Notes under the pieces: model-generated
Databases searched by the model: none
What the model was told of the DNA's origin: nothing
The model's input: only the letters and a program-made list of their open reading frames with translations
Shown here: positions 2,799 through 13,906 of the stretch, piece after piece
How positions within the stretch are numbered: position 1 is the stretch's first letter
How the letters are laid out: every line of letters begins with the position of its first letter
Program-made: the position numbers and the translations under genes
DNA from: Myxococcales bacterium
GTDB lineage: Bacteria; Myxococcota_A; Polyangia; Fen-1088
Direction of reading: 5' to 3'
Length of the DNA stretch: 16,272 nt
NCBI GenBank assembly: GCA_003170035.1
Contig: PMZX01000172.1
Location: 1 to 16,272 of the forward strand

Positions 2799-2888
2799 GC
2801 CTGGCCCTGGCGCCGCCGGCCACCGGCCGCCGCTTTGACAGGATTCGTGTGATCGCGAGCGTGGGTGCTAACGTTTGGTCCTGCGCGC

Positions 2889-4892
2889 GTGAAGCTTGCT
2901 CTCATCTTTCCGCCGGCCTGCGATCCCACGGCGCCCTACCCCGCGGTTGCGGCGCTGGCGGGATTCCTGCGTCCCCAGGGCATCGAGGTCCTGCCCATCG
3001 ATGCCAACCTGGAGGGTTTCCTGGCCCTGCTGCAACGCGAGCCACTGGCCCTTCTCTCCGAACGCATCGAGCGGCGCATCGCCGGACTGCAACGCCGGCG
3101 CGCACTCGACCACCAGAACCAGCTCGATCTGTTGACCCTGTTGCGGGTGCGCGGCGAGGCAAGTACAGTGCCGGGCGGGATCGGCGCGGCGCTGGACATC
3201 CTGCGCACCAGCGAGCGCTTCTACGATCCCGAACTTTATGCCGACGCGGTGGCTACCGTCAGTGCAGGCCTGCACGCGATCGCGGCCGCGCACGCGCCTC
3301 TGCAGCTCGACTTCACCGCATACCGGACGCCCTTTGCCCTCACCACGCCGGACGAGATCGCACGCGATGCCGATCCCGAGCGCGATCCGTTCGACGGCTA
3401 CCTCGTGCGCAAGCTGGTGCCCCGTCTGCGCCGCGCGCGGGTGGACGCCATCGGCCTGTCGGTGTGCTTCCCGGGTCAGCTCACACCCGCGTATTCGTTC
3501 GCCCTCAAGCTCAAGGCCGCATTTCCCGAGGCGCACCTGGTCGCAGGCGGGCCGGCCATCACCCAGGTCCTGCTGCGGCTGCAGGGTCCCGCGCTCGCGC
3601 AAGCGCTGGGCGTCTTTGACAGCGCGGTGGTCTTCGAGGGCGAGCACACCCTTCTGGCGCTGTGCCGCGCTCTCGCCGATGGGCGCGGGACGCCGCAGGC
3701 GCTCCGCCGAATCCCCAACCTGGTGCTGCGCGATCCCTTGCTGGGGGCGCGCATTCTCCCCGGGCCGTCGGCTGTCGATCTGCGAACCCTGCCCGCGCCC
3801 GATTTTGACGGCCTGCCGCTCGATCGCTATCTGTCGCCGCATCTGCTTCTGCCCTACGATCCGACCCGCGGCTGCTACTGGGGCCGCTGCGCTTTTTGCC
3901 ACTACGGCCTGGCGGCCACCGGCACCGCCCGCTACCGCGAGCGCGCGGTGGACACCGTGGTCGAGCACCTCGGCGCTCTGTCCGTCCGCCACAACACGCG
4001 CTTCTTCTATTTGTCGCAGGACTCGGTGGCGCCCGCGATGCTCTGCCGGTTGGCCGACGCACTGGCAGAAACCGGCCTGGACCTGCGCTGGGGCACTGAC
4101 TTACGGCCCGAGCCGTATCTGACGCCCGAACGCTGTCAGGGCTTGCGCCGGGGCGGTGCCGTCGCGTGCAGCCTGGGGATTGAATCGGCCAGCCCGCGGG
4201 TGTTGCGCTCGATCGACAAGGGGATCGCGCCGGGCCGCGCAGCCACGGCCGTGCGCAACCTGGCCCGCGCAGGCATCGCGGCCGAGGTGATGTGCTTTTC
4301 CGATTTTCCCACCGAGACCTTCACTGAAGCCATGGCAACTCTGCATTTCATCGAGCGCTACGCCCCGCATATCGCGGCTTTCATCGTGGGGAAGTTCGAC
4401 CTGACACATGGTTCGCGCGTGGCGAGGGATCCGACGCGCTTCGGACTGCGCGAGATCTGGACCGTGCAAGGCGACGCACTGGGCACGGCCCTGTTCTTTG
4501 CCGAGCGCAAGCCGGGCAAGACCGGCCGCGAGCGCGTCCGCCTGGAGCACGCGCTGGACCGACTGGCGTCCGGCTGGCTGCTGCGCGCCTATCCCTGGGC
4601 CGGCTCGCTGTCCACTGCGCACACCATCTTCTATTACGACCGCTTCGGCCCCACCGTGTTCAGGGATCTGGCGGGCCAGGCGCACGGACGCATCTTGGGT
4701 AGGCTGCCAGCCAGCCGAGTCTCCCGCTTCGACCTGCACAAGCTGGTTCGCGCTCAGCAGCACGAGGCCGAGATCTGGCACGAACTGACTCAGGTACGCC
4801 GGCAGGTCTCGCGCCGGGCCTACGATGAACTGGCAGCGAAGGTGCCACCGTTGCAGCCAGAACGCGCGGCGGGCCGGGGGAGTCGCCCCTAG
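2889..4892 (+). CDS. B12-binding-type radical SAM protein with CX4CX2C cluster motif
   Basis: The protein has 667 residues. The N-terminal half looks like a Rossmann-type cobalamin-binding region, with KLALIFPPACDPTAPYPAV at the start and a second part at about 184-224 (VDAIGLSVCFP...HLVAGGPAIT). I see no DxHxxG base-off motif. The radical SAM core starts near 320. Its Fe-S cysteines are C329, C334 and C337 in TRGCYWGRCAFCHYG, four residues between the first two instead of three. Later core motifs include LGIESASPRVLRSIDKGI. The GTG start at 2889 is chosen because the family begins with K-L-x-L-I-x-P-P; no Shine-Dalgarno sequence is obvious. The family includes B12-dependent methylases and RiPP-modifying enzymes, but no precursor peptide or partner gene is adjacent, so the substrate is unknown. 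The gene is divergent from the NRAMP gene and appears monocistronic. Confidence 0.82.
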   Translation: MKLALIFPPACDPTAPYPAVAALAGFLRPQGIEVLPIDANLEGFLALLQREPLALLSERIERRIAGLQRRRALDHQNQLDLLTLLRVRGEASTVPGGIGAALDILRTSERFYDPELYADAVATVSAGLHAIAAAHAPLQLDFTAYRTPFALTTPDEIARDADPERDPFDGYLVRKLVPRLRRARVDAIGLSVCFPGQLTPAYSFALKLKAAFPEAHLVAGGPAITQVLLRLQGPALAQALGVFDSAVVFEGEHTLLALCRALADGRGTPQALRRIPNLVLRDPLLGARILPGPSAVDLRTLPAPDFDGLPLDRYLSPHLLLPYDPTRGCYWGRCAFCHYGLAATGTARYRERAVDTVVEHLGALSVRHNTRFFYLSQDSVAPAMLCRLADALAETGLDLRWGTDLRPEPYLTPERCQGLRRGGAVACSLGIESASPRVLRSIDKGIAPGRAATAVRNLARAGIAAEVMCFSDFPTETFTEAMATLHFIERYAPHIAAFIVGKFDLTHGSRVARDPTRFGLREIWTVQGDALGTALFFAERKPGKTGRERVRLEHALDRLASGWLLRAYPWAGSLSTAHTIFYYDRFGPTVFRDLAGQAHGRILGRLPASRVSRFDLHKLVRAQQHEAEIWHELTQVRRQVSRRAYDELAAKVPPLQPERAAGRGSRP

Positions 4893-4988: not shown

Positions 4989-5345
4989 ATGAAGCGGATT
5001 GCTCTTGGAATTGCCCTCAGCCTCTTCACTCTCGCGGTCACGGCACAGGGAAAATCGACCGACAAGAAGGAGCCGGCCAAGTCCGCCGAGGCGCAGAAGA
5101 CAGTGACCCTGGTTGGGCAGATCGGCTGCGGTCACTGTGCCTTCCATGTGACCGACGCGTGTACCGATGCAATTCTGGTCAAGGAGAATGGTCGGGATGT
5201 CGTCTATCTTTTCGCCGCTGATCCGGCGCGCAAGCACGACATGGCGATGTGTGAAAGCGTGCGCGATGGCAAGGTGACTGGTGTCGTCAGCGATAAGGAC
5301 GGCAAGAAGACCATCAAGGTCAGCAAGATCGAGTTCGGCAAGTAG
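4989..5345 (+). CDS. Small exported Cys/His-rich protein (DUF6370-like)
   Basis: The product has 118 residues. It has a signal peptide (MKRIALGIALSLFTLAVTAQG), a Lys-rich linker, and a compact domain with C47, H49, C50, H53, C58, H83 and C88. The core reads VTLVGQIGCGHCAFHVTDAC, followed by a VKENGRDVVYLF strand and DGKKTIKVSKIEF at the end. From memory this resembles the DUF6370 family, whose function is unknown. The CGHC pair and nearby His residues could bind metal or form a disulfide, but there is no thioredoxin fold. The ATG at 4989 is supported by an AAAGGAA Shine-Dalgarno sequence 5-6 bp upstream. The gene lies 96 bp after the radical SAM gene, with no clear promoter seen between them. 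It converges on tonB with only 40 bp between, and no clear terminator. A periplasmic location is likely; the role is not shown. Confidence 0.8.
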   Translation: MKRIALGIALSLFTLAVTAQGKSTDKKEPAKSAEAQKTVTLVGQIGCGHCAFHVTDACTDAILVKENGRDVVYLFAADPARKHDMAMCESVRDGKVTGVVSDKDGKKTIKVSKIEFGK

Positions 5346-5385: not shown

Positions 5386-6171
5386 CTAGCGAAGGGCAAA
5401 CACGATAGGCATCACGATTTGAACGAATTCGCCGGCCGGGGGCAGCGGGGCGGCGCGTTCGACGGCGCGGAGGGCGTTGTTGTCGAGGGTGGTGAAGCCT
5501 GAGCTTGCGAGGACGCGCAAATCCCTCACCTCGCCATTCTTCTGTAGGCCGAAGGTCACGATGACCTTGCCCTGCCAGCCCATGCGGCGGGCGACGTCGG
5601 GATAGACCACGCGGCGCTGGATGGCCGCTCGCAGGCTTTCCCATTGTGGGCTGCCCGGACTCCAGCCAGAGCCCTGTTTGCCGAAAGCCGGAGCCCGTGA
5701 CCCGGATTTCCCCGTGGCCGCGGAAGCGGCGGGGTTGGCCACGGGGACAGCCACGCCGATGTCGCCGTCGGCGAGGATCCGTGGTGCCGCCGCGCCGTCC
5801 TCGACCGTCGAGGCTGCAACTTGCGGAATGGAGGGTGCGGGGGCCGATGTCTCGGGCGAATGTTGTGGCCGGGTAGAAATGGACGGGGTTCTCTCTGTGG
5901 TTGGTTTGCGCGGCCTTGGTGTCTTCTCGACTGCGTTGATCCCCGCCGGTTGGTGGGCGGTCGTGAGATCGGCGGCGGCAAGCCGATCATCGTCGACCAC
6001 GCGGACCTCGACGGGGCTGGCTGCTGGCGTGGCGGGAGCCGACGGCAATGGCCCGAGATCGACTAGCACCAAGGCGACACAGAGATGTCCGGCCAGGGAG
6101 AATGCCAAGGCTCGCCGCATGTCAGGGCGGCCAGATCTTCGCCGCACGGGTGCCGGAGACTCACATCTCAT
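5386..6171 (-). CDS. tonB: TonB-family energy transducer
   Basis: This protein of 261 residues couples the inner-membrane proton gradient to TonB-dependent receptors. A single N-terminal membrane helix spans about 19-39 and carries the TonB-type S-x3-H motif (S25, H29 in FSLAGHL). A long periplasmic Pro/Ala/Ser/Thr-rich linker covers about 42-170. The TonB C-terminal domain, about 180-261, has RRVVYPDVARRMGWQGKV then KNGEVRDLRVLASSG. The ATG at 6171 is preferred over one at 6120 because AGGAGG at 6179-6184 sits 7 bp upstream, although this puts 18 residues before the helix. The gene is divergent from the TonB-dependent receptor gene, and the two share a promoter region with a perfect inverted repeat, so they are probably co-regulated. 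No exbB/exbD is present here, so the motor must be encoded elsewhere. Confidence 0.9.
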   Translation of the reverse strand: MRCESPAPVRRRSGRPDMRRALAFSLAGHLCVALVLVDLGPLPSAPATPAASPVEVRVVDDDRLAAADLTTAHQPAGINAVEKTPRPRKPTTERTPSISTRPQHSPETSAPAPSIPQVAASTVEDGAAAPRILADGDIGVAVPVANPAASAATGKSGSRAPAFGKQGSGWSPGSPQWESLRAAIQRRVVYPDVARRMGWQGKVIVTFGLQKNGEVRDLRVLASSGFTTLDNNALRAVERAAPLPPAGEFVQIVMPIVFALR

Positions 6172-6186
6172 GCAGGCACCTCCTGC
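6172..6186 (-). promoter_or_regulatory. Strong ribosome binding site of tonB inside a small hairpin
   Basis: On the minus strand AGGAGG (6179-6184) precedes the ATG at 6171 by 7 bp, which decides the tonB start. The site lies in a perfect 5-bp inverted repeat (GCAGG 6172-6176, CCTGC 6182-6186, 5-nt loop), so it could be partly masked in the mRNA. The masking is inference; the stem is short. Confidence 0.55.
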
Positions 6187-6220
6187 GTGCTGGTTGCCTT
6201 GTGCTTTGTGCTTGTCCTGC

Positions 6221-6260
6221 TTGAAGTCGTTGTGTTACTAACCGTAACACGAAAGTTCAA
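6221..6260. promoter_or_regulatory. Divergent promoter region with candidate NikR-type operator
   Basis: A perfect inverted repeat, GTGTTAC (6232-6238), TAACC, GTAACAC (6244-6250), lies between tonB and the receptor gene. It is flanked by TTGAAG (6221-6226, plus strand) and TTGAAC (6255-6260, minus strand). Each could serve as a -35 box facing inward, with weak TAACAC -10 boxes formed by the far arm of the repeat (18-bp spacer on plus, 17 on minus). The arms match the half-sites I recall for Geobacter-type NikR, and a NikR gene lies in the downstream operon. A protein bound here would block both promoters. The repeat is directly visible; NikR binding and the promoter assignment are inference, and the 5-bp spacing is shorter than in known NikR sites. 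Confidence 0.6.
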
Positions 6261-6329
6261 ATGCGTGCTACTAGAGATTCGAGGTTCGTGGCGACCGATC
6301 GATTTTCCGCACCAGGAGTGAAACCCATC

Positions 6330-8624
6330 ATGAAGAACATCGCGTGCCCGCTGGCTGTCCTGCTCCTCTCCATCCCGAATGCAGCCTGGGCAGACGACGA
6401 GTCAACTCCGCCGGTTTCGGCAGAAGAGACAGCCAATCTTCCGACCACTCCAGCGAATGCGCCGCCGCCGAGCGAGGCTCCGGGCGGCCTCGCACCTGCT
6501 CCATCGCAGGCCAAAGTGAGCGAGCCCGCTCCAGCGCCAGCCCCCGGGCAGCCGTCCGCGGGCATTCCCGAGCCGCCGGCCAAGACCGCGGTGCCGATTG
6601 CGAAACAGCCAACGCTTCGCGAGTTGCCCGCGATCATCGTGACCGAATCGAAGATCGCGCAGCCCCAGGAACACGTCACGCAGAGCGTGCGCGTGCTCTA
6701 CGCCGAAGACATCGCCGAGCGGCCTGAGAGTCAGCGCAATCTGTCCGAGCTTCTGCGCTACGAGCCAGGCGTGTTCGTCTTGCCGCTTTCGCGCAACGAT
6801 GCCAACTGGGGCTCGTACGGCGGCCTGGGACCGAAATACAACGTGCACCTTCTCGATGGCCTGCCGGTGGATTCGTTCGTCGACGACATGAGCCTGGATG
6901 CGTGGGCCTTCGAGCGTGTCGAATCCCACCGTGGGCCGGCTTCCGTCATGTATTCTAACTACCTCACCGCGGACTTTGCGGGAAACGAGTCGCCGCTGGC
7001 GGGCGTGACCAACTTCGTGCTGCGCGACAGAGCTGACACGGCAGCCACGCGCCTCATGGCCGGCTTTGGCTCGTACGACACTTTCGCCGGGAAGCTGTAC
7101 CACCAGGACCACGCCGGGAACTTGCACTACTTGTTCGGAGCCAGCTACGAGAAGTCGGACTACACCGGGTACGGCGCCAGCCCCTCGTGGCTCGATACCA
7201 TCAAGGATCCCGACTATCTCAAGACCAAGGCGTACGCGAAGCTCACCTATTTCTTGGGCCGCGACGATCACAAGCTGTCACTCTTTGTTCAGCACACATC
7301 GCATTCGGGCGATCTGGGACGTCCCAATCGGGATTTCGTCAATGCCTACGACACCGTGAATGCCACCTACGCCAACCAGATCAATACTTGGTTCGGCGCT
7401 CAGCTCAAGGCCGGGTTGCGCGCGTACGATCGCAAGTGGGGCGAAGACAACTACGATTCGAGCAATCCCGCGCCGGTCGCCAACCAGTTCGCGTTGCGAG
7501 AACACGACGCGGTCAAGCAAACGATCTTGCCAGCCGACCTGACCTTCAGCGTGCGCCACATGGGCTCGAGCGTCCTCACGTTTGGGGCGGATGGACAGTA
7601 CGCAACCTATAAGACCTCTGCGCAGCCGCAGAACTATGCGGTGGTCGATGCCCTGGGGAATCCGATACCGGGTCCGCAGCAGGTCACGCAGAACAAGGCC
7701 TCGGCCTATTCCACGGGCGCCTTCGTGCAGGAAAAGCTGTCCATTGAGAAGTTGGTCCTGCGCGCCGGGGGCCGTTTCAACCGCGTTGGCAACTCCTACG
7801 ACCTCATCAGTGGCGGCGCGCCCGGGCTTGCCAGTCAAGCGTGGAACAAGCCGCTGTGGAGCGTGGGTGCGCGCTACAACGCCCTTGTGCAATTGGCCGT
7901 GTATGCCAACGCTGGCAGCAGCTTCACCCCGCCAGCGGCCAAGTCCGTGGCGGGAACCCTGCTCGCCGGCGATGCAGGTGTCACAGGTAAGAACGGGCAA
8001 CTTCCCAACCCCAACCTCAAGCCAGAGAACGGCCTCAGCGTCGATGTTGGCGTCGAGACACATCCGCTGACCATGCTGACCGTCGGCGTGCGCGGCTTCT
8101 TCACCCAGGTGAGCGACGCCATCGTGGACAACAACGTGAGCGTCGACGCTTCCACATCGCAGAGCCAGTCGGTGAACGCGGGCAACACGCGCTCCACAGG
8201 CGTGGAAGTCGCGGCCGAGCAGTACCTGGCCGAGCGGCTATCGTCGTTCGCGAACTTCACCTACACGAACAGCAAGGTCTCGAACGATCTCGATGCCAAC
8301 CAGAACGGCGCAAACATTCCCTTCGTGCCCAATTGGGTCGCCAACGCCGGGCTCACGGCGTACTTGCCGTACCAGGTGACGGCGTCGCCGTATGTGAACG
8401 CCGTGGGCAGGTTCTACGACAGCACCTCGTTATCCAGTCGCAAGGCATTTGGGAAATTCGTGGTGGTCAGCCTGAAGTTGCAGAAGACATTCGTCGCACG
8501 CGCCTACCAGGTCGACCTGTGGGCGGTGCTCAACAACATCACCAACAAGAAATACGAGCAGCCCTGGAATTTCAGGGATCCTGGCTTCAATGGGATGGGC
8601 TACGTGCAGGTACGGATGCAGTGA
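6330..8624 (+). CDS. TonB-dependent outer-membrane receptor, probable nickel uptake
   Basis: This outer-membrane receptor has 764 residues. A signal peptide (MKNIACPLAVLLLSIPNAAWA) is followed by an unusually long Pro/Ala-rich spacer (about 22-96). A TonB-box-like segment, PAIIVTES, lies at 100-107. The plug domain runs from about 112 to 235 (RNLSELLRYEPGVFV, then NVHLLDGLPVDSF and ERVESHRGPASVMY), and a beta-barrel fills the rest, including FGSYDTFAGKLYHQD, KPENGLSVDVGVE and NNITNKKYEQPWNF. It ends in VQVRMQ, not the usual terminal aromatic. The ATG at 6330 starts the signal peptide; AGGAG lies 12 bp upstream, slightly far. It is the first gene of an operon with an unknown exported protein and nikR. 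It diverges from tonB across a candidate NikR operator. Receptor identity is certain; nickel as substrate is inferred from the linked regulator. Confidence 0.9.
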   Translation: MKNIACPLAVLLLSIPNAAWADDESTPPVSAEETANLPTTPANAPPPSEAPGGLAPAPSQAKVSEPAPAPAPGQPSAGIPEPPAKTAVPIAKQPTLRELPAIIVTESKIAQPQEHVTQSVRVLYAEDIAERPESQRNLSELLRYEPGVFVLPLSRNDANWGSYGGLGPKYNVHLLDGLPVDSFVDDMSLDAWAFERVESHRGPASVMYSNYLTADFAGNESPLAGVTNFVLRDRADTAATRLMAGFGSYDTFAGKLYHQDHAGNLHYLFGASYEKSDYTGYGASPSWLDTIKDPDYLKTKAYAKLTYFLGRDDHKLSLFVQHTSHSGDLGRPNRDFVNAYDTVNATYANQINTWFGAQLKAGLRAYDRKWGEDNYDSSNPAPVANQFALREHDAVKQTILPADLTFSVRHMGSSVLTFGADGQYATYKTSAQPQNYAVVDALGNPIPGPQQVTQNKASAYSTGAFVQEKLSIEKLVLRAGGRFNRVGNSYDLISGGAPGLASQAWNKPLWSVGARYNALVQLAVYANAGSSFTPPAAKSVAGTLLAGDAGVTGKNGQLPNPNLKPENGLSVDVGVETHPLTMLTVGVRGFFTQVSDAIVDNNVSVDASTSQSQSVNAGNTRSTGVEVAAEQYLAERLSSFANFTYTNSKVSNDLDANQNGANIPFVPNWVANAGLTAYLPYQVTASPYVNAVGRFYDSTSLSSRKAFGKFVVVSLKLQKTFVARAYQVDLWAVLNNITNKKYEQPWNFRDPGFNGMGYVQVRMQ

Positions 8625-8629
8625 CTGGC

Positions 8630-9328
8630 ATGGTTCGATCTCCAATCCTTCTGTGGTTCGCGTCGGCCGCAATGCTGGCACTGACCGCTGGCGGCGCCTC
8701 GGCTGCAGGCGACGAAAGGGTCGCGAGTACCATTCGCCTTGCTCGTGCGGGCGGGAAGCCCACGGCAAGCAACCTGGCAAGCAGCAGGCCAGGCACCTTG
8801 GTCGTCATCGAATTGTTTCAGGTGGCGCTGGTCGAGGGCGAAAGCCTGCGCTACGTTCGCCGGGTGGCCGCGCTGGATGGCCGCAGTCCCGACGGCATCG
8901 TCGCGGAACTCCTGCGGGGCGGTACCCAGGTTTCGACCTTCTTCGCCGGTGCGCCCGCGATCGTTCACTCCACGAGTTGGCGGTACGAGGAACCTGGCAC
9001 GGTCGTGCTTACCTACCTCGCCTACGGCGAAGAGCTGAATCCATCCGCCCTGGCTCGCAACGACGTGCACGCGATTCTCAAGAACGATCTCCCCGGAATC
9101 GCAACGACAGATCCGGACAAACCGCGACCGCCCAAGCTTGGCCATGAAGACGTTCTGGCCCACGGACTGCGCCACCTGGCGCTTCTGGCCCGTCGCGCAG
9201 GTGGAGACAAGTTCATCCAGCGACTGAACCAGCGCAGCCGCAGGTTCTTCGCCTCCATCGAACCTGAACTCGCGGGCGAAATTGGCGGCGCCCACATGCT
9301 CGTTCCCTCATCAGCAGGAGCGCGGTAG
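8630..9328 (+). CDS. Unrecognised exported protein between the receptor and nikR
   Basis: I do not recognise this protein of 232 residues. It begins with a signal peptide (MVRSPILLWFASAAMLALTA then GGASAAG), so it is probably periplasmic; there is no lipobox and no further membrane helix. The middle is predicted beta-rich (TLVVIELFQVALVEG, then TVVLTYLAYGEELN). A helical C-terminal part contains H172, H178 and H182 in GHEDVLAHGLRH and a basic stretch NQRSRRFF. The ATG at 8630 is 5 bp after the receptor stop; a GTG at 8621 overlapping that stop is an alternative. The stop lies 10 bp before nikR. This tight arrangement implies co-transcription and perhaps translational coupling. A role as an accessory in metal uptake, such as a periplasmic metal carrier, is a guess from context and the His cluster. 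Confidence 0.75.
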   Translation: MVRSPILLWFASAAMLALTAGGASAAGDERVASTIRLARAGGKPTASNLASSRPGTLVVIELFQVALVEGESLRYVRRVAALDGRSPDGIVAELLRGGTQVSTFFAGAPAIVHSTSWRYEEPGTVVLTYLAYGEELNPSALARNDVHAILKNDLPGIATTDPDKPRPPKLGHEDVLAHGLRHLALLARRAGGDKFIQRLNQRSRRFFASIEPELAGEIGGAHMLVPSSAGAR

Positions 9329-9338
9329 TCTTGCCGCG

Positions 9339-9857
9339 ATGAAGGACGCATTGGTTCGATTCGGTGTTGCCCTCGAAGGTTCTCTGCTGCGCGATCTCGA
9401 TGCCGTGGTTCGCGAACGCGGGGGTACGCGCTCGGAGCTTTTTCGAGATCTGGCCCGCGCCGAGGTTGGGCGAACCAAAGTGCCCAAAGCGGTGGATGCC
9501 ATCGCGACGCTCACGATGGTCTACGACCACCACGTGCGCGACCTCAGCGAGAGGCTGACCGAGCTTCAGCATGAGCTGGGCGAGCAGGTGCGTGCGACGC
9601 TGCACGTGCATATCAACCACGACCTGTGCCTGGAGGTCATCGTGATTCGCGGGCGCTCCGACCGTCTGCAAAGCATCGCCGACCGACTGCTCGCCTTGCG
9701 CGGCGTGAAGCAGGGAGGGATCGAGATCGTGGCGGGACTCGGCATGCCTGGGCACGATCATGCGCAGGTCAGCGAAGGCGAAATGCCACCGTCCAACCCA
9801 TCCGCGCGCGTGCCAGGCGCCCGTCGCGCAAGGCCGAAGAAAAGCGCCAAGCGCTGA
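9339..9857 (+). CDS. nikR: NikR-family nickel-responsive ribbon-helix-helix regulator
   Basis: The protein has 172 residues. The N-terminal ribbon-helix-helix domain (about 4-48) has the DNA-contacting strand ALVRFGVAL, with R7, G9 and A11 facing the DNA. This is close to the Arg-Gly-Ser strand recalled for Geobacter NikR and unlike the E. coli protein. The ACT-like nickel domain runs from about 55 to 135. It keeps all four high-affinity ligands: H78 (ELQHEL), H89 and H91 (TLHVHINHD) and C97 (DLCLEV). The C-terminus is extended by about 35 residues, with HDH at 139-141 and a basic tail (RRARPKKSAKR). The ATG at 9339 is chosen by homology; AGGAG lies about 20 bp upstream, too far to be convincing. 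It is the third gene of the receptor operon, 10 bp behind the unknown protein gene, and probably regulates its own operon and tonB. Confidence 0.93.
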   Translation: MKDALVRFGVALEGSLLRDLDAVVRERGGTRSELFRDLARAEVGRTKVPKAVDAIATLTMVYDHHVRDLSERLTELQHELGEQVRATLHVHINHDLCLEVIVIRGRSDRLQSIADRLLALRGVKQGGIEIVAGLGMPGHDHAQVSEGEMPPSNPSARVPGARRARPKKSAKR

Positions 9858-9892: not shown

Positions 9893-12800
9893 TCATAGTC
9901 CCACGTCAACCTGACCCGGAGCCAACTCTACGCGTTTGACGTTCACCTGGAACGTCTTGCCGTCGTGGTCGATGGTGCAAACCACCAGCTTGAGTGGCCG
10001 CGAGGGCGGGGCGCTGCGCAGGTGGGCCTGCAGTGGCACGGACCCGCGCTTTCCTGCCGGCAACAACAGGGCTGACAGACCCACGGTTGCAGCGTCGGTG
10101 GTTTCGCCAGCCAGGGCAGGGCTCTTGCCGCCCGCGCGTGCGATCAGATCGGCCCCGAGATCCTCCCATGAAAGCAGAACCATCGTGCCCGGCCCCTGGA
10201 AGAGCTGCAATTCGGCCAGGTCGCGGCTCATGCTCTCGATCAGACGTTTGCCGTCCACGTCCTTCGGTGGCTCGGCCATCAGGCGCGCCATGTGCGCAGC
10301 CGCTGCCAGGCGGGCGAAGAGGCGCGGATCGCTGGGGCCCGGGTTGCCTGGCGAGCGTGCCACCTTGCGCTCGATGCGCAGGGCCTCGTCGGTGCGGCCC
10401 GCGCCTGCGGCAGCCGCGGCCAGGCGCAGCCATGCCAGCAGGTTCTCCGGCGCCATTTCAGTCAGGGTCGTGTATTGCGCGTAGGCCAGGTCATACCAGC
10501 CATGCGCCAGGTACACGTCGCCCAGCAATTGGCGCGCGGCCTGGTTGCGCGGATCGAATTCCACGATTTCCGAATAGGTGCGGATGGCGTCGTCGGTCTG
10601 ACCCGCATCGGCCTGCAGATCGCCGAGCGCCAGCACCAGGCGCGGGGTGAGCAGGCCCGCGGCCTTCAGCTTGCGCGAGAAGAGCAGTGCCTCATCCGCG
10701 TGTCCGGCGCGCGCCAGCAGCTTGACCAGCCGCATGCCGCCCGCCGGATCGTTGGGTGCCCGGGCCAGGTATTCCTTCAGGCGGGCAATGCGAGTCTCGA
10801 CATTGCCAATGGCGGAGAGCTCGAGGTCGACCTTGTCCCAGGGCACGCGCGTCCCGAACAGGCGTTGCTCGATGGCCAGGGCCAGGGCATCGCCCGCGTT
10901 CCGGCGCAGCAGCACGCGCGCCAGGTAGAAGCGTGCGTCGGGCCGCGGGCCGAGGAAGTCGAAGATCTCGGCCACCGCCGCCTCGGTTTCCATGCGATGG
11001 GCGAGCAGGCGCAGGAAGAGCGCCTCGGCCCGCCAGTCAGGCAGCTCGCAGGCGGCGATGGCGGCGCGATAGCGCTCGGCCAGTTCGCCCGGCGCAGTCG
11101 CGGTTTGCAGACGCTTCATCCAAAGCAGAGCGCGCTCGAAAAGCGGCCGCTCGCTGGCGTCGCTGCACGCGGCAGGCATGATGGCAGCGACGGTGGACAC
11201 GCTCCGGCGTGCCTCGGGCGCGCCCGTGGCTAAGGCGTCGCTCCTCGACAAGTCTGCCCTGGAGCGAGTGGCCGCGATCTTTGCCATCGCCCTCTGCGGT
11301 CGAGATGCCGCTGGCCGTTTCTCAACCCCATCTAGCAGATCGTCGATGGAGCCGCGTCCGCCTCCCTTGTCCTTGGTGCCTAGACCGCCAACGCCAATGC
11401 CCTCCTCTTCGGCGGGTGCGGAAGCCAGCTGCCTGGCTGGCGCGGCCGGCGCAACCGCGAGAGTCGGAGCCGGTGGCTCGCCCGCATGGCCCTTGAGCAT
11501 CGCACGGTCACTCTCTTCAGTAGCCTCTTTCTTCTCGGCGGTGGCCAGCCGTCCAAAGGCCGGTCCCCGCTTGCGCGCGATCCCCTGCGCCGCGTACGCC
11601 TGCTCGCTCTCCAGGGCCAGGAAGCTGGTGAACGGGGTCATCAGGCCATAGTCCAGACCCAGCTTCACCAGGGTTCCGCGCTGCTCGTCGGCACCGCCGC
11701 CTTCGCCCAGGATCTTCTTCATGTTCGCCGCGGCCCACAGGCGTGGCACCAGCGCGGCTACGGACTCGTCCTCTTCCTCGATTGCGTAGCTCCTCTCGAA
11801 CGGCTGCCCAGCCAGGCGGCCCTTCACCTTCACCTGGCTGGGCAGGTCGTGGTGTGAGCGCGCCAGCAGAACCAACTCGCCTCCCCAGGAAACCTTGCCG
11901 TCGGCCGAGGTGAACACCTCGTCCAGGCCAGCGCCTGCATCGAGCTGGAAATCAGTGATGGTCGGTGTCTTCAGCGCCGCAACCAGTTCCAACGCCCGGC
12001 TACCCGCCTCCTCGGCGTTGCCCACGCGCAGACTCTTGCCGCCCCCTGCGTGCGCCAGCGCATCCAAGAAACCGCTATCCGCCTCGCCGCCCACCGCGAC
12101 GGTGAAGAGCCGCGCCCGGGAGGTGGCCAGGCTGCGCCGCAAGGCCGCCTGCAGCCGTTCGCCACGGATCTCGCCCGAAGTGGACAGGCCGTCGCCGATG
12201 TAGATCACCGCGGGCTGCTCGCTGCCATGCAGGCGGGCCAGGGCCACGTCGATGAGGGCGCCCAGATCAGTCGCACCGCCGGGCGGATGCGCGGCCAGCG
12301 CCTCGCGCGCCTTGCCCACCTCAGCCTCGGTGGCGGCAGCCAGTCCAGAGGCCGGATACAGCACCTGGGGCCGCACGTCGAGCGCCACCAGGGCGAACTT
12401 GTCGGCATCGGAGAGCGCACGCAGGATGGCCTCGGCGGCCGCCACTTCCAGTTGCCGGGTGTTGTCGTCGATGCCGGCCGAGGTATCCACCACCACCACC
12501 ACGGCGCCCGGTTGCTGGCTTACCGTGGCCCAGTCCAGATCGGGTACGTAGCGCAACATCACGAAGTCCGCGGTTTCGGCCCCAGCGGAAAACCGCGCCA
12601 CCCGCACCGGCGGCGGCAGGGTCTTCAGCTTCGCCTCCAGAAGGAAATCCGCTTGCGCGGTGAAGCCCGAACGCCGCATGGTCACCTTCTGGCCGCCGTT
12701 CTCGATGCGCGCGTCTTCCAGGGTGGACAGCTCCATGCCCTTGCCCGCCTTGCCCAGATCCACACTGAGCGAGAACTCGCCGATGCGCACCGGCGGCTCG

Positions 12801-13906
12801 GAGCGCAAGGGGAAGAGGTAGCGCAGGCGCCCGTCGACCAGCGGTGCCAGTTCCAGATAGCGCGTGACCACCCGGCGCGTGTTGCCGGCGTTCACCGGGT
12901 AGATGCGTGCGCGGTAGCTGCGGCCGTCGATCCATTCCAGCAGCGCGGGCTCAAAGCCGGCGCGCGCGGCAGCCCCGTACTGGCGGGCGGCCTCCTTGCG
13001 CTCGATCAATTCGCCCTCGACCAGTTGACCGTTGTTCTCGACGGCAAAGCCGGTGACCAGCGCGCCCTCGGGTACGGTCAACCAGTACCAGCCTTCCACC
13101 TCGCGCTCGCCGGGGTTGAAGAAGGTCTGGTCCACTTCGGTCTCGGCGATGCCGGATCGCAGGGTCACGCGCACTGCCTGGCGTGTGATCTCGAGAGCGC
13201 GCGCCGGGCTTGCAGCGCGGTCGAAATCCACGCCGTAAATGCGCCCCGCGCCGGCGCCGCCGCCGGCCAGGCGCTGGTCGGCCATGCCGCCGGTCCAGTC
13301 TTCCCAGTACGCCACCGGCGCGACCTGGGGCGCAACCCCGGTCCGCAGCAAGGCGCGTTCGCCCGCGCGCACCTCCACCCGTCCGCCCGGCGCGCTCACA
13401 TGCGCCAGTCCGCGCGCCACGTACACGCTCGACTCCTTGGCGTCGCGGCGAATGGAAAGCCCGCTCTCTGCTGCGGACACCGTCGCCTCGCCCAAGCTCA
13501 GCACGCCCGGCTTGCGATCCACCACCGGCACCTCCAGCCAGATTTCGCCGGCCTCCAGCGCGGTCCCGTCGGCGGTGAGTTGCAGGCTAGTCCCACCGCG
13601 CAGGAACAAGGCAGCCCCGTCGGACAGGCGCAGCAGCGCACGCGAGCCGGGGCCGGTCGTCACCTTGGCCAACGCCAGCACCGCCGCGCCCGATCCCGCG
13701 CGCACGCGTTTGCCCTGCTGCTCGACCGTGACGTCGCCGGCCGCCAACTCCATGCGCGCCTCCAGCGGCTCGCTGCGCCGGGGCGCCACGTTTCGGCGCA
13801 CGGTCGCCACCGCAAGGATCGCCACCACTGCGGCCAGCCCGGTACTCGCCAGCACCAGTCGCACGTGTTTCCTTTGCGGCACGCTCTCCGATGTGGTCTC
13901 GGCCAT
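9893..13906 (-). CDS. Large membrane-anchored FecR-like / VIT / VWA / TPR protein
   Basis: The protein has 1337 residues. A single N-terminal membrane helix spans about 17-37 and is followed by a FecR-like beta region (about 50-190). The VIT domain (about 222-365) includes EVDQTFFNPGEREVEGWYW, ERKEAARQYG and YRARIYPV. The VWA domain (about 466-645) has a metal site of D474 and S476 in DTSAG, T546 in GGATDLG and D572 in YIGDG; the fifth MIDAS position is Gly, not Ser. The family-typical LGLDYGLMTPFTSFLALESE follows at 749-768. A flexible Pro/Ala then Gly-rich linker (about 790-900, GIGVGGLGTKDKGGGRG) leads to TPR-like repeats (about 940-1230) and a small C-terminal beta region. The ATG at 13906 has an excellent AAAGGAGG 5 bp upstream. 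It is monocistronic. A role in cell-surface assembly or protein interaction is inferred from the domains. Confidence 0.9.
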   Translation of the reverse strand: MAETTSESVPQRKHVRLVLASTGLAAVVAILAVATVRRNVAPRRSEPLEARMELAAGDVTVEQQGKRVRAGSGAAVLALAKVTTGPGSRALLRLSDGAALFLRGGTSLQLTADGTALEAGEIWLEVPVVDRKPGVLSLGEATVSAAESGLSIRRDAKESSVYVARGLAHVSAPGGRVEVRAGERALLRTGVAPQVAPVAYWEDWTGGMADQRLAGGGAGAGRIYGVDFDRAASPARALEITRQAVRVTLRSGIAETEVDQTFFNPGEREVEGWYWLTVPEGALVTGFAVENNGQLVEGELIERKEAARQYGAAARAGFEPALLEWIDGRSYRARIYPVNAGNTRRVVTRYLELAPLVDGRLRYLFPLRSEPPVRIGEFSLSVDLGKAGKGMELSTLEDARIENGGQKVTMRRSGFTAQADFLLEAKLKTLPPPVRVARFSAGAETADFVMLRYVPDLDWATVSQQPGAVVVVVDTSAGIDDNTRQLEVAAAEAILRALSDADKFALVALDVRPQVLYPASGLAAATEAEVGKAREALAAHPPGGATDLGALIDVALARLHGSEQPAVIYIGDGLSTSGEIRGERLQAALRRSLATSRARLFTVAVGGEADSGFLDALAHAGGGKSLRVGNAEEAGSRALELVAALKTPTITDFQLDAGAGLDEVFTSADGKVSWGGELVLLARSHHDLPSQVKVKGRLAGQPFERSYAIEEEDESVAALVPRLWAAANMKKILGEGGGADEQRGTLVKLGLDYGLMTPFTSFLALESEQAYAAQGIARKRGPAFGRLATAEKKEATEESDRAMLKGHAGEPPAPTLAVAPAAPARQLASAPAEEEGIGVGGLGTKDKGGGRGSIDDLLDGVEKRPAASRPQRAMAKIAATRSRADLSRSDALATGAPEARRSVSTVAAIMPAACSDASERPLFERALLWMKRLQTATAPGELAERYRAAIAACELPDWRAEALFLRLLAHRMETEAAVAEIFDFLGPRPDARFYLARVLLRRNAGDALALAIEQRLFGTRVPWDKVDLELSAIGNVETRIARLKEYLARAPNDPAGGMRLVKLLARAGHADEALLFSRKLKAAGLLTPRLVLALGDLQADAGQTDDAIRTYSEIVEFDPRNQAARQLLGDVYLAHGWYDLAYAQYTTLTEMAPENLLAWLRLAAAAAGAGRTDEALRIERKVARSPGNPGPSDPRLFARLAAAAHMARLMAEPPKDVDGKRLIESMSRDLAELQLFQGPGTMVLLSWEDLGADLIARAGGKSPALAGETTDAATVGLSALLLPAGKRGSVPLQAHLRSAPPSRPLKLVVCTIDHDGKTFQVNVKRVELAPGQVDVGL

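Follow-up and report, generated by a model that had tools for sequence, protein, structure and literature searches.

In Escherichia coli, the gene for the nickel sensor NikR sits behind the transport genes, in the order nikABCDE-nikR. Few outer-membrane nickel receptors have been named in print; the available part of a 2024 paper names seven (PMC11247825). In Helicobacter, nickel uptake through FrpB4 and TonB is under NikR repression, with NiuBDE as the importer (PMC5140060, in excerpt), and Bll6948, Daro_3944 and pHCG3_081 make up a cluster of predicted nickel/cobalt receptors (PMC3400609, in excerpt). Here we analyse a 16,272-nucleotide stretch of DNA from a Myxococcales bacterium (the window; GenBank contig PMZX01000172.1), in which tonB is divergent from three genes: a TonB-dependent receptor, an exported protein of what we call the HSTSWR family, and nikR. 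Judging from its sequence, we take the operon to be a NikR-repressed outer-membrane nickel uptake system, with a probability of roughly 0.75.

The receptor operon and its candidate operator

The window is contig C239 of the host assembly (G000; 5.19 Mb in 540 contigs, 77% complete). Gene calls and domain scans confirmed the four genes with the coordinates and strands of the first-pass annotation, which had been made from the letters alone, and the intergenic region between tonB and the receptor holds a candidate NikR operator:

5386-6171, minus strand: tonB; TonB_C (PF03544) at 64 bits against a cut-off of 24.6, also TIGR01352
6232-6271, no strand assigned: candidate NikR operator, with half-sites at 6232, 6244 and 6265
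6330-8624, plus strand: TonB-dependent receptor; barrel (PF00593, 4e-35) and plug (PF07715, 6e-13); likely start 6330
8630-9328, plus strand: exported HSTSWR-family protein with a leader and a Nudix-like predicted fold; likely start 8630
9339-9857, plus strand: nikR; NikR_C (PF08753, 9e-29); likely start 9339

Only 5 bp separate the receptor gene from that of the exported protein, and 10 bp separate the latter from nikR. The order receptor, exported protein, NikR recurs in two more species of the host family (L006, which is the same as L075, and L007), so the arrangement goes beyond chance. A search of relatives for the gene order, the check that the first-pass annotation had proposed, thus shows these three genes in three species, all of a single family. 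A tonB gene is also present in the receptor loci L006, L007, L009, L010, L011, L012 and L020.

The product of nikR scores above the cut-offs of PF08753 (100 bits against 22), PRK04460 (127 against 105) and PRK02967 (114.6 against 83), and below those of TIGR02793 (101 against 175), PRK00630 (100.5 against 119) and PRK01002 (98.7 against 111). The ribbon-helix-helix model PF01402 gives 19.9 bits, with a cut-off of 20.5, and the same part aligns to NikR chains; residues 5-129 align to the solved NikR chain 2bj1. H78, H89, H91 and C97 can be read in the translation with the numbering first given to them, and we take them to be the equivalents of the nickel ligands of E. coli NikR. Past the NikR-aligned part the protein carries a basic C-terminal extension of about 40 residues; tails are also seen in the proteins of L007 and L010.

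The candidate operator reads GTGTTAC (6232-6238), N5, GTAACAC (6244-6250), N14, GTGCTAC (6265-6271). The NikR signal of delta-proteobacteria is given in the available part of PMC545781 as GTGTTAC-[N13/14]-GTAACAC, with the reversed GTAACAC-[N13/14]-GTGTTAC in Desulfotalea and, for Desulfovibrio vulgaris nikK, a variant. The GTAACAC-N14-GTGCTAC of the window is one base away from the reversed, Desulfotalea-type signal, and has an extra half-site at N5. Both exact copies of GTGTTAC in the 16 kb window, counted on both strands, fall inside the operator (0.34 expected), and when the window was shuffled 200 times, at least two exact copies appeared in 6 cases. L006/L075 and L007 keep the three-part spacing of half-sites ahead of their receptor gene, with some letters changed.

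With L002, L006 and short overlapping loci set aside, we scanned the window and 63 loci, 1,009,340 bases in all, for GTARCAC-N13/14-GTGYYAC at no more than one mismatch. Nine sites were found: one in the window, two in L007, three in L010 and one each in L008, L075 and L045. Eight of them lie in receptor loci, and the remaining one in L045, a Nonomuraea. Since the motif letters were relaxed after three sites had been seen, the comparison of gap lengths is the fairer test, and it still contains those three sites: on the plus strand, gaps of 13-14 give 6 of the 12 matches over 31 gaps, while the 29 other gaps share 6. The L010 sites are between its second receptor and NikR, before a permease gene, and at 18683. 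This last one, an exact GTAGCAC-N14-GTGCTAC followed by a small uncharacterised frame (18683-19234 for site and frame) and a receptor-like gene, may mark a further NikR target. For a second receptor-NikR pair of the host, described below, inspection by eye gives a weaker match with N13. Autoregulation of the window operon is likely, given the position of nikR and of the operator. We also considered cobalamin control and rejected it: at gathering score, the window and 20 loci scanned with Rfam yielded only three tRNA-type matches and one rRNA, and no cobalamin riboswitch.

NikR, transporters and a second pair

An exported HSTSWR protein stands at the receptor in six genomes, the host and five others, and all six carry NikR. 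In five of these loci (the window, L006, L007, L010 and L012) NikR is inside the receptor locus; in the sixth, L008, it is on a separate contig, but an operator-type site lies upstream of the receptor. Across the genomes behind the searched loci, NikR was found in 6 of 11 (those of L006, L007, L008, L010, L012 and L050) and not found in those of L009, L011, L017, L020 and L024. In the Brachymonas genome of L050 it is on another contig, adjoining a CbiM gene.

Transporter genes adjoin the receptor in several relatives. L007, from the host family, has tonB, then receptor, HSTSWR protein and NikR, then another tonB, and then a second receptor with CbiM+PDGLE, CbiQ and an ATP-binding cassette (ABC) ATPase. 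In L012 (Anaeromyxobacter), tonB, an ATPase, CbiQ and CbiM+PDGLE lie opposite NikR, receptor and HSTSWR protein. In L010, NikR and the permease face a second receptor, and tonB, receptor and HSTSWR protein follow; the permease contains a His-rich loop and matches only DsbD_2, below cut-off, and the N-terminal start of this NikR resembles that of the window NikR by eye.

The host's second pair (L002, L074) consists of another receptor with, directly behind it, a NikR 37% identical to that of the window. Opposite this pair are HoxF-like and HoxY-like genes (PF01512, PF01058), and the sister genome has HoxF-like domains in the corresponding place, with matches to the NiFe-hydrogenase large subunit on that contig. 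Compared with the receptor adjoining nikR and hyp genes on pHCG3, the second receptor shows 35% identity; a homologue on pHG1 shares its region with a HoxN-type transporter and hydrogenase genes. With the window receptor, the second receptor has only a 61-residue match in common (E 3e-4). Second-type receptors carry TonB_C (PF03544) at their own N-terminus (L074:3485-5998, L007:6431-8980, L010:2470-4944 and L072:3234-5741), an odd fusion of energiser and receptor.

The operator before the receptor, the CbiMQO/NikMQO-type genes in a relative and the second pair opposite hydrogenase-type genes support the nickel link and the autoregulation that the first-pass annotation had proposed. In the mechanism that we infer, apo-NikR would come off 6232-6271 when nickel is scarce, and the receptor, the HSTSWR protein, NikR and possibly TonB would be made. 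TonB would power the receptor, and nickel, probably as a small chelate, would enter the periplasm. There the HSTSWR protein would meet the cargo and might help to pass the metal on to a carrier in the inner membrane. The genes for this carrier would lie elsewhere; in one relative the neighbouring CbiMQO/NikMQO-type transporter could fill the role. At high nickel, NikR would repress its own operon. What the sequence itself shows is the genes and their order, the match and conservation of the operator and the neighbours in relatives; nickel as the cargo and repression by NikR are inferred from these. The role of the HSTSWR protein is the most conjectural step: the chelate form of the cargo and a function in release are tentative proposals, and rather doubtful ones.

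Receptor family, HSTSWR family and neighbouring genes

The window receptor carries the plug motif SRNDANWGSYGGLGPKYN and shares 49% identity with its counterpart in the Thermodesulfovibrio record L011; the family occurs in Myxococcota, Acidobacteriota, Nitrospirota and Pseudomonadota records. In the host class, a DNA pattern for NDANWG was found at 11 places in 10 of 317 genomes. Four genomes were retained as holding receptor members (G000, G001, G015 and G205), and the HSTSWR protein occurs in the same four; we dropped the places in G008, G219, G229, G268, G273 and G294 and at G205:C538, as by eye their neighbours were not receptor-like. A methyltransferase-like gene lies upstream of the receptor in L011 (PF13649) and, by clustering, in L017 and L020.

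The first-pass annotation had called the exported protein unrecognised, and indeed neither Pfam nor NCBIfam matches it at E 0.001. We collected and aligned 57 family entries, the window's own among them; the family motifs are HSTSWR and H..RH. Models and fold comparison predict a Nudix-like fold, with the Nudix-fold regulators NrtR, AraR and NadQ among the nearest folds, and no solved structural relative was found by sequence at E up to 1. A strict Nudix box is present in 0 of 58 HSTSWR sequences and REXXEE alone in one, P0049. Three invariant histidines, which the alignment and models place on a predicted strand (one) and on a helix, four residues apart (two), could hold a metal.

HSTSWR proteins were found in 4 of 317 genomes of the host class, 2 of 295 of the L011 phylum, 1 of 299 of the L050 family and 1 of 291 of the L024 order, counts in which misses are possible as about ten candidates were scored per genome, and in which the matches outside the host class were already known. 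Closer to the host, 2 of 7 genomes of its genus and 3 of 18 of its family have one. Plasmids gave a single record, a weak Nonomuraea match. The protein is exported in six loci without FecCD genes and leaderless in six loci with them (Fisher 0.001 by loci, 0.014 by eight lineages lumped by hand). The counts are not independent, since the receptor tree requires one leader/FecCD change (support 59/69, L024 left out); the poorly resolved HSTSWR tree has three. The pattern possibly reflects a single evolutionary switch. Without FecCD, the HSTSWR protein would act in the periplasm, bare metal entering by a separate carrier; with FecCD, the whole complex would be imported and the protein would act in the cytoplasm. 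The broad proposal that HSTSWR proteins are a new Nudix-fold family acting on an imported chelate in a compartment set by FecCD, coupled with a second cross-phylum family of nickel receptors, is a rather doubtful reading.

In L016, L019, L023, L031, L038, L053 and 17 other loci, from actinobacteria and candidate phyla, an S51-peptidase-like and cysteinyl-tRNA-synthetase-like protein is seen by eye near the HSTSWR gene. We considered it as a clue to the role of the family, and no clear function emerged.

Elsewhere in the window, an MntH-type Nramp transporter (1472-2929) is followed by a tandem universal stress protein (513-1496). A B12-binding radical SAM protein (2865-4892) has as nearest models a C-methyltransferase of ribosomally synthesized and post-translationally modified peptides and PhpK, all those listed below cut-off. 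A small exported CGHC-motif protein (4989-5345; DUF6370, PF19897) lies tail to tail with tonB; the small Cys-rich exported protein close to tonB in L012 (2865-3296) is distinct from it. Convergent with nikR is the gene for a 1337-residue protein with FecR, VIT, VWA and TPR domains (9893-13906). A foreign origin was considered on the basis of composition and set aside, the difference in G+C being too small (receptor 0.622, flanks 0.668 and 0.682).

Alternative readings and known systems

Several observations weigh against a NikR-repressed nickel system. At the operator, no sigma-70-like promoter was found in 6100-6340, the degenerate letters of the motif were picked with three sites already known, and a palindrome with N5, exact in the window, appears with at most three mismatches in 23 of 200 window shuffles. 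L010 has no site ahead of its window-type receptor, and the scan at one mismatch or fewer returned none in L012 or at the host's second pair. Further, searches of the host gave no NiFe large subunit; the host contig in question stops next to the HoxY-like gene. As to the inner membrane, gene calling and scanning of the window gave neither exbB/exbD nor a nickel carrier, and the Nramp transporter present there is of MntH type. CbiM (PF01891) was not found in the host (77% complete), its sister genome or G205, G001 being 93% complete, and NicO was found in 0 of 5 genomes searched, the host included. The first-pass description of the locus as self-contained is therefore not upheld.

The Nitrospirota (so labelled) add to these points. 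Of 295 genomes sampled, 9 have the receptor at E <=1e-60. Just two of these nine also encode an HSTSWR protein (in some of the other seven, contigs end nearby), which makes it dispensable. All nine have a binding-protein gene with the receptor, and NikR was not found in the two that were searched. The type of binding protein was read by eye in the seven loci without HSTSWR protein, with a Pfam check for L124 and, among the known loci, for L009. It is followed by a FecCD-like permease and ATPase in L122 and L123 and by a permease in L124, with no permease directly after it in L125-L128. ExbB- and ExbD-like genes and tonB-like genes surround the receptor in L122 and L123 (by eye), unlike in the window. 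In L125 and L128 the near surroundings include a second receptor, genes of importer type and, with these, a CobN-like gene (Pfam CobN-Mg_chel in L125, by eye in L128), so a chelate of another metal is possible there. The L009 binding protein matches the iron-complex-type chains 4ovk and 4hn9 and HI_1472 (3psa), presumably the molybdate-binding MolA, better than nickel-binding 4ino. The strongest evidence for a receptor family that is not restricted to nickel comes from the CobN-like neighbours and binding-protein loci. The first-pass annotation had named homologous receptors lying consistently beside siderophore or cobalamin genes as contrary to nickel; what is seen elsewhere in the family is a periplasmic-binding-protein gene, often with FecCD, and CobN-like genes near the receptor in two Nitrospirota genomes.

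What cargo other than nickel might be carried? A cobalt complex, a corrinoid-like chelate or a mixed nickel/cobalt chelate would require NikR to sense co-entering nickel and the CbiMQO-type genes of the relatives to carry cobalt. NCBIfam does name the energy-coupling factor genes of L007 and L012 cobalt transporters, with CbiQ of L007 above cut-off and CbiM and the ATPase below, and the CobN-like genes of L125 and L128 point the same way. However, the metal cannot be told from the family name, since NikMNQO is weakly homologous to CbiMNQO (PMC545781, in excerpt), and in both Nitrospirota loci a second receptor gene intervenes before the CobN-like gene. Taken with the presence of NikR and NikR-type operators, the hydrogenase-type genes paired with the second receptor and the negative riboswitch scans, this makes a cobalt or corrinoid cargo improbable. 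Even less credit is due to a chance association of a NikR gene with a system for iron siderophores or for molybdate/tungstate. Siderophore-, heme- and ferrichrome-receptor models match the window receptor, all the listed ones below their cut-offs, and the likeness of the L009 binding protein to iron-complex and HI_1472-type proteins would fit; against this, NikR is in the receptor locus in five of the six exported-HSTSWR loci and L008 has an operator-type site, and we consider such a chance attachment very unlikely. A nickel system whose HSTSWR protein acts as a domain for sensing or for holding a ligand, and not for metal release, overlaps with the reading we prefer; it strikes us as unlikely, less so than cobalt.

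If our reading of a NikR-repressed nickel system is right, the locus represents a receptor family spread over four phyla and a test case regulated by NikR, and it offers a candidate, accessible to assay by itself, for the release step; to our knowledge, the mechanism by which a nickel chelate is opened after import is still open. Literature searches, which did not include the HSTSWR motif, showed no title on this operon among the papers listed.

By description, the locus resembles the Helicobacter FrpB4 system in having a TonB-dependent receptor under NikR and, in some lineages of the window-type receptor, a binding-protein ABC importer; unlike that system, it has nikR as part of the receptor operon, together with a gene for an HSTSWR protein. 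In Afipia carboxidovorans, hydrogenase and hyp genes lie on pHCG3 near a TonB receptor, probably pHCG3_081, that has NikR at its side as in the host. The pHCG3 receptor has no significant similarity to the window receptor (E 0.95; the comparison covered this member of the cluster), and nikR and receptor are divergent there, whereas in the window they are on the same strand, with a third gene between them and tonB adjoining. The NikMNQO/CbiMNQO systems are resembled in the operator half-sites and, in L007 and L012, in the CbiM+PDGLE, CbiQ and ABC ATPase genes that adjoin the receptor, but CbiM was not found in the host and the window operator is the reversed pair with a third half-site at N5. 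From the Nudix-fold NrtR, AraR and NadQ, the HSTSWR family is set apart by the lack of a strict Nudix box, by its HSTSWR and H..RH motifs and by its exported form. A sensor gene behind transport genes is not new, as E. coli nikABCDE-nikR and the nikR beside the pHCG3 receptor illustrate; the window receptor family, the operon with an HSTSWR protein and the three-part operator are not seen in the Helicobacter FrpB4 or pHCG3 systems.

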